A stretch of DNA of 64,000 bases from Thiohalobacter thiocyanaticus. GTDB taxonomy: Bacteria; Pseudomonadota; Gammaproteobacteria; Thiohalobacterales; Thiohalobacteraceae. The notes under the pieces are model-generated. The model searched no databases. It was not told where the DNA came from and saw only the letters and a list, made by a program, of their open reading frames with translations. The position numbers and the translations under genes were made by a program. Shown piece by piece: positions 54,461 to 56,649 of this stretch. Numbering within the stretch: the first letter of the stretch is position 1; every line of letters begins with the position of its first letter. The stretch covers positions 1,178,001 through 1,242,000 of the forward strand of contig NZ_AP018052.1 of NCBI RefSeq assembly GCF_002356355.1. The letters are read 5' to 3'.

Positions 54461-54536
54461 GATGAGTGCTTCGATCTGGTGGCTGGAAAGCCGCTTATTA
54501 TAGGGGCTTGGTGTGGGGCTCTGAAAGAGGGTGGAA

Positions 54537-54998
54537 ATGAAGCTGCTGTGCGATGCAATGCTCAAGGGTCTGGCGCGCTGGCTGCGTGCGGCCGGCTATG
54601 ACACCGAACTGCCGCGCCCGGACGAAAGCGACCGCGACATCATCGAGCGAGCCCGGCATGAGGGCCGTTGGCTGGTTACGCGGGATCGCAAACTGCTCGA
54701 ATTCCGTCATGCCGACGAGACAGTGAGACATCTGCAGGCCAATTCCCTTGATGACTGTGTGGTAGAATTGTCAGCCCGGCTGTCTATCGATTGGCAGTAC
54801 CGCCCCTTCAGCCGCTGTCTGCTCTGCAACCGGCCGCTGGAGCCGGTCCCGGAGGCCCGGCGCGAGGCGGTGCCGGTCGATGTTCGCGACCAGGCCCTGT
54901 GGCAGTGCCCGGCCTGCGGCCGGCTCTACTGGGAAGGCAGCCATGTCCGCAGGATGCGTCACCGGCTGGAGGATTTTACCCGCAAAATCAGGGGGTGA
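54537..54998 (+). CDS. Mut7-C RNase-fold protein with zinc-ribbon
   Basis: 153-aa cytoplasmic protein of the Mut7-C family. The PIN-like N-terminal half has conserved acidic residues in KLLCDAMLKGLARWLRAAGY and WLVTRDRKLLEF. The C-terminal half holds a zinc ribbon, CLLC and CPAC, about 46 residues apart, followed by YWEGSHVRRM. Predicted ribonuclease, physiological substrate unknown. The ATG at 54537 follows AGAGGG; a GTG at 54531 is also in frame. It is divergent from ettA. Confidence 0.88.
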   Translation: MKLLCDAMLKGLARWLRAAGYDTELPRPDESDRDIIERARHEGRWLVTRDRKLLEFRHADETVRHLQANSLDDCVVELSARLSIDWQYRPFSRCLLCNRPLEPVPEARREAVPVDVRDQALWQCPACGRLYWEGSHVRRMRHRLEDFTRKIRG

Positions 54999-55048: not shown

Positions 55049-55311
55049 CAGTCCCTAATCCCCGGCAAAGCCACATTCAGCGTGGCTGTGTATCTGTCCA
55101 GCAAGGCGCCGGACTGCCGCTGTAGCATTTCTACAGCAAGGGACGGCAACGCAGCCTGGACAGATACACAGCCGCGCCCGTCGGGAGCCTCGCATGGCCT
55201 GCCCTGCAGCGTTGCATCCGCTTGGCATAGATGGCTATGCCGGCGCGAATACGCCTTGCATCCCAGGCCATGCGAGGCTCTGAAAGCGGCTTTGCCGGGG
55301 ATTAGGGACTG
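55049..55311. repeat. Nested fold-back element with three perfect long inverted repeats
   Basis: The outer arms are a perfect 24-bp inverted repeat (55049-55072 with 55288-55311; begins CAGTCCCTAATCCCC). Inside are two separate arms. The first has a perfect 18-bp stem (55084-55101 with 55156-55173; GGCTGTGTATCTGTCCAG) enclosing a 5-bp stem (TGCCG/CGGCA) and a 7-bp hairpin (GCTGTAG, CATTT, CTACAGC). The second has a perfect 17-bp stem (55185-55201 with 55264-55280; GAGCCTCGCATGGCCTG) enclosing GGCATAG, ATGG, CTATGCC. The whole folds as a two-armed Y on an outer stem. No protein is encoded. It differs from families A to D and ends 81 nt before glyA. Confidence 0.85.

Positions 55312-55392: not shown

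Positions 55393-56649
<1,257 letters not shown>

Follow-up and report, generated by a model that had tools for sequence, protein, structure and literature searches.

The window analysed here, a 64,000-nt stretch (G000:C1:1178001-1242000) of the 3.23-Mb Thiohalobacter thiocyanaticus genome, contains a gene-free element of 263 bp (55049-55311, no strand assigned) between a Mut7-C RNase-domain gene (54531-54998, plus strand; Pfam PF01927, E = 4.9e-39) and the serine hydroxymethyltransferase gene glyA (55393-56649, plus strand; Pfam PF00464, E = 9.7e-181), both of which lie outside it. The element stands 82 bp upstream of the glyA start and has the outline of a Y, with an outer stem enclosing two arms. 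The outer repeat is perfect over 24 bp (55049-55072 and 55288-55311) and, extended by its inner part, reaches 32 bp at 94% identity, with two mismatches and TTCAG/CTGAA at its end; the repeat finder placed the left terminal inverted repeat (CAGTCCCTAATCCCCGGC...TTCAG) at 55049-55080 on the plus strand and the right one at 55280-55311 on the minus strand. The stem of arm 1 is perfect over 18 bp inside 55080-55101 and 55156-55177, that of arm 2 over 17 bp (55185-55201 and 55264-55280), and each tip is a 7-bp hairpin (GCTGTAG/CTACAGC and GGCATAG/CTATGCC). Folded as DNA, 55049-55311 reached -108.9 kcal/mol, compared with -57.2 (sd 3.8) for shuffled versions (z = -13.7; none of 200 shuffles as good). 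The Y-shaped fold-back described in the initial annotation is confirmed in all its parts.

The arms are diverged copies of a single module of about 82 nt, placed in opposite orientation and matching at about 72% in reverse complement; the element therefore consists of two facing halves, in each of which a hairpin adjoins a terminal repeat. The three inverted repeats had been taken as independent of one another, and while their perfect lengths of 24, 18 and 17 bp hold, the independence does not, the two arms being reverse-complement copies of the same module. Model R1 (97 nt, built from 19 arms) scored arm 1 (55080-55176, plus strand) at 81.0 bits (E = 4.6e-22) and arm 2 (55185-55280, sense on the minus strand) at 71.6 bits (E = 3.4e-19), both arms belonging to its training set. 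The invariant core reads CAAGGC...CAAG...AACGCNG. The module alignment places its parts in arm 1 on the plus strand at 55102-55107 (CAAGGC, the 5' side of internal loop 1), 55137-55140 (CAAG, the 3' side of internal loop 2) and 55148-55154 (AACGCNG, the 3' side of internal loop 1 plus the closing G), and comparison of the arms places CAAGGC, CAAG and AACGC of arm 2 on the minus strand at 55253-55258, 55221-55224 and 55209-55213. Since the arms oppose each other, there is exactly one sense module on each DNA strand and in any transcript of the element, whichever way it runs.

Comparison with related genomes revealed both empty sites and many further copies. In a Thiohalobacter relative (G001), the region upstream of glyA aligns on both flanks and about ten unrelated bases stand in place of the element, and the glyA upstream regions of the other relatives read (G002, G003, G004, G006 and G010) also lack it. 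Copies elsewhere are complete Y elements of the same geometry with different terminal repeats, the outer repeats measuring 31-35 bp in most copies examined. Genome G006 holds 21 near-identical copies of 262-263 bp, ending in CTAAGACAAACGATAACAAAGCC and set in unrelated flanks, nearly all with TA on both sides (three lack TA at one end), and many copies ending in TTAACCCGGCAACC follow a like pattern of unrelated flanks and TA. The closest relative of the window copy (L011, in G001; ends CAGTCTCTAAACC..GGTTTGGAGACTG) has TA on both sides. At a site between two genes which we take, from their sequence by eye, to be purF and cvpA, G002, a genome of the same genus, reads CTC-TA-element-TA-AAAC and the genome of the window (G000) reads CTC-TA-GAAC, a clean duplication of TA. 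Set against its nearest relative, the window element has 7 of 22 pairs in arm 1, 5 of 17 in arm 2 and 6 of 17 in the outer stem that changed on both sides and still pair.

Terminal inverted repeats, target-site duplication, dispersed copies with empty sites and the lack of a transposase gene of its own are the characters of a MITE. The stretch 55049-55311 is a copy of a dispersed, non-autonomous, TA-inserting, MITE-like element inserted between the Mut7-C RNase gene and glyA; this reading, taken as a whole with the single-stranded role of the module considered below, is judged probable. A non-autonomous mobile element had been among the possibilities first raised for this locus, and the copies, the empty sites and the TA duplication at sister copies bear it out. 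No target duplication had been visible at that stage because the duplication at the window copy, which is an old insertion, is not clean.

A second early proposal, a structured RNA belonging to the glyA leader, here considered as a regulator of glyA, suits the position of the element just upstream of that gene; it is scarcely credible given that the matching region of the close relative G001 lacks the element, as do those of the five other relatives, and that copies sit at unrelated genes. A conserved glyA leader is refuted, and an influence on glyA expression peculiar to this one insertion is possible.

The orthologue of L011 in the genome of the window (L002) has lost arm 1 and has a broken arm-2 tip; inserted copies therefore decay. 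The same genome carries a second full Y element (L414:1460-1780; G000:C1 about 1666000-1666230) with other ends (TTCGCCCTATTTTGC), immediately upstream of an apparent tRNA gene. A 40-bp perfect palindrome in G006 (TATTAACCCGGCAACGGTATATACCGTTGCCGGGTTAATA, L070:278-317) consists of two terminal repeats without anything between them, and is a minimal derivative of the family.

The search for a helper transposase or a larger parent element covered the complete genome G006, in which no gene was found inside matching ends and almost every close match to the 19-bp end belonged to an element of about 267 bp, and 0.8 Mb of Oscillibacter 1-3, in which no gene was enclosed by a pair of ends. The TA duplication fits an autonomous insertion sequence of the IS630/Tc1 or IS5 type without proving one, and no partner of this kind with matching ends was found in these two sets. 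Several candidates for a larger autonomous transposon with the module at its ends were set aside: two ends in G006 that lie 1.4 kb from each other proved to mark a MITE with an insertion sequence inside it, a span of 2.5 kb in Oscillibacter was two separate MITEs flanking a host gene, and long-range plus/minus pairs in L160 and L121 enclose ordinary host genes. A phage or plasmid origin was also rejected: the viral collection yielded five stretches, and records of phages and plasmids gave no match. Locus L066 (G006:C1:2438900-2441300) contains this insertion sequence, with a 388-aa transposase-like gene and ends ACTAGTGTCCGGAA, which we take from its protein to be IS4-like, nested inside a MITE ending in TTAACCCGGC. 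In L160, from an uncultured Chromatiaceae, ORFs resembling glycine-cleavage genes lie between two one-armed elements whose ends are AGGGCTCGCG and AGGGCCGCGG, which, together with the glyA gene beside the window copy, may be a coincidence; a long near-perfect palindrome without the module (L160:6110-6203) adjoins a one-armed element.

The module consists of a stem P1, an internal loop (AAGGC/AACGCN), a stem P2, a second internal loop (CGCN/AAG) and a hairpin P3, and conservation is highest in the internal loops close to the tips rather than in the perfect stems. When 62 diverse modules were aligned, three helices emerged in which 25 of 27 pairs had changes on both sides; a closing C-G pair and one G-C pair were invariant. 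In this alignment 88.3% of cells were paired, compared with 54.1% (sd 1.0) after shuffling and 36-48% when slid, and the covariation score was 0.856 against 0.222 for shuffled data; the set had been picked partly by P1 complementarity, which was required to be mostly present, with no such demand on P2 or P3. Homologues and compensatory variation, two of the points on which the initial annotation proposed a check, are both abundant. Both internal loops have CAAG on one strand facing CGCNG on the other, and on our reading of the alignment P2 appears to be flanked by two similar internal loops in opposite orientation.

A search against Rfam gave no match above the gathering threshold, only sub-threshold plant microRNA hairpins and one isrB. 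Elsewhere in the window, a cobalamin riboswitch lies at 2504-2724 on the minus strand (97.4 bits). Some letters of the module resemble the twister-sister ribozyme. A related self-cleaving ribozyme borne by a MITE would suit the recurrence of GCAAGG, GCCG and GCAAG with invariant internal-loop nucleotides; it is nevertheless very unlikely, with no match to the Rfam model even at E <= 5 and no counterpart of the C-A cleavage step or the conserved L1/SL4 residues (PMC5660989), the 3' loop strand here being AACGCN.

The module extends well beyond Thiohalobacter. R1 gave hits in 113 of the 369 genomes that were sampled from the class, and a second model (R2) detected the module in 126 of 398 Pseudomonadota genomes and in 30 of 291 genomes of the class of Oscillibacter, counts that are lower bounds, as the searches were filtered. 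The pattern of invariant letters (CAAGGC-N8-GCCG-N16..18-CAAG-N7-AACGC) matched at least 118 stretches in named genomes, among them Microbulbifer, Marinobacter, Delftia, Aquitalea, Faecalibacterium, Oscillibacter and Ruminococcus, and nearly all of the 80 matches listed had a variable complementary stem outside the pattern, which the pattern does not demand. The module is common to elements ending in TTAACCCGGCAAC, CTAAGACAAACG, CTAATGAGAACG, GTGTCCTGT or CAGTCTCT, and is carried by elements of Ruminococcus with ends GAACCTGTCCACA and apparent TAA/TTA repeats, of Oscillibacter with ends GGCCTTGTTTGA and TA, and of Faecalibacterium with ends GGTGTATCTGAGAA. It occurs across several phyla inside miniature elements with unrelated ends, with two arms in most of the gammaproteobacterial elements examined and one arm in the Clostridial elements examined. 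Oscillibacter 1-3 (L330-L389) contains 214 end sequences TAGGCCTTGTTTGA genome-wide, equivalent to roughly a hundred copies, mostly one-armed elements of 160 bp with a few end-only forms of 70-90 bp. No earlier description of the module was found in the literature searched, which covered subscription journals thinly, and this absence is not proof of novelty.

A transition in a stem gives a G.T or an A.C mismatch depending only on the strand that is read, and a bias between the two therefore reveals the strand selected to fold. In deduplicated Y elements, each arm read on its own strand, G.T exceeded A.C by 29:6 in arm 1 and by 21:3 in arm 2, which lies on the opposite strand, giving 50:9 together; over all modules, P2 had a ratio of 49:6. 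The outer stem, serving as an internal control, was unbiased (11:15; arms versus outer stem, Fisher p = 1.5e-4). The bias in P1 was confined mostly to about 8 bp from the loop, where the 3' strand favours GG opposite C or T, with a ratio of 9:5 farther out; part of it may reflect one feature, the GG conserved in the 3' strand of a few columns. The excess of G.T in the arms on their own strands and the unbiased outer stem indicate that the arms are selected as single strands and that the outer stem is merely a terminal repeat. Selection of the inner module of the arms as a folded single strand, RNA or single-stranded DNA, forms part of the joint reading given above as probable. A cruciform acting as such, the remaining early proposal, is not upheld, in that signs of single-strand selection are confined to the two arms, on the strand proper to each, and are lacking in the outer stem.

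The same mismatches bear on a rival account, that of an ordinary MITE. Template switching in replication (quasi-palindrome correction) would keep its palindromes perfect, the shared core would be a remnant of ancestral transposon ends that were bound in double-stranded form, and the fold would be functionless. Such correction predicts what is seen in the outer stem and distal P1, where both sides change without strand bias, and the complementarity of these parts may be kept by it or by turnover of the terminal repeats. Correction is strand-blind, yet P2 and inner P1 are strongly biased, and on opposite strands in the two arms; the core, moreover, is conserved although the ends are unrelated. 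This account is considered unlikely.

Selection on the folded strand may operate on the spread of the element. Among 30 recent Oscillibacter copies from one genome, private changes in the inner stems comprised 11 G.T and 8 A.C (n = 19), which differs from the 49:6 between families (p = 0.006). Single insertions thus appear to drift while lineages that are still multiplying retain the fold, and the absence of bias among recent copies supports, though the numbers are small, a role of the module in spread and not in the host. As to the form that folds, RNA is slightly favoured over single-stranded DNA because G.T (G.U in RNA) far outnumbers other mismatches in inner P1 (101, versus 11 G.A and 9 G.G), a contrast that is weaker in P2 (40, versus 23 G.A and 10 G.G). 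The orientation of one-armed copies relative to genes and strand composition, used as a test between RNA and single-stranded DNA, gave a weak signal, a slight preference for the direction of the next gene (32:17).

On the preferred reading, that of a MITE-like element whose module is under selection as a folded strand, a trans-acting DDE transposase would presumably cut and join the element, and the module would fold as a single strand, either in a transcript or as single-stranded DNA. In our view the folded module would be read by a broadly conserved partner, and it most likely acts in cis for the spread or tolerance of the element itself, not for the host. We tentatively propose, as possible rather than probable, a new class of structured nucleic acid kept as a spread aid by unrelated miniature transposons of Pseudomonadota, Clostridia and other phyla, being either a non-coding RNA, perhaps catalytic or bound by a universally conserved protein, or a folded single-stranded DNA site. 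Bacterial MITEs are usually viewed as bare ends moved by the transposase of another element. That one strongly covarying, strand-specific folded module, its core invariant, recurs in MITEs whose ends are unrelated implies that these elements share a cis function, for spreading or for being tolerated, which current MITE models lack. About a third of the Pseudomonadota genomes sampled contain the module, and many unexplained repeats would be annotated by its covariance model.

Among known systems, the TA-inserting bacterial MITEs RUP of pneumococcus and Correia/NEMIS of Neisseria are alike in being small, non-coding and dispersed, with terminal inverted repeats, TA ends, no transposase of their own and presumed mobilisation in trans (reviewed in PMC2229807). 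RUP and Correia are, however, confined to one genus and have no shared folded core, whereas the element described here carries an invariant covarying module, often as an inverted pair, across phyla and between unrelated ends. The Caulobacter CIR repeats (PMC2229807) also have two long inverted repeats and two arms joined by a linker, but are built around GANTC methylation sites; the present element has no such invariant site and its arms are enclosed by an outer stem.

REPINs are likewise mobile inverted hairpin pairs with a single-strand fold and compensatory changes, and have been proposed to fold as a single-stranded DNA clover (PMC3116915). A relative of REPINs, in which a Y1 (RAYT-type) transposase mobilises the element in single-stranded form and the terminal repeats are secondary, would account for the inverted hairpin pair, the strand-specific fold and the dispersed intergenic copies. 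It is nonetheless quite unlikely, as the TA duplication and the terminal repeats of 31-33 bp do not fit, one-armed copies are many and the module alignment contains no invariant GTAG-type tetranucleotide at the hairpin foot, a character of REPIN and REP units. Integron attC sites have the folded-strand boxes RYYYAAC/GTTRRRY at the site ends; these were rejected as a match, the invariant letters of the module being CAAGGC, CAAG and AACGCNG and its sites lying in TA-flanked elements, not in cassette arrays. Twister-sister (PMC5660989) shares with the module the succession of stem, internal loop and stem and the GCAAGG-like loop letters, and the module differs from it in having no covariance-model match, no cleavage-site strand and a second conserved loop of different topology.
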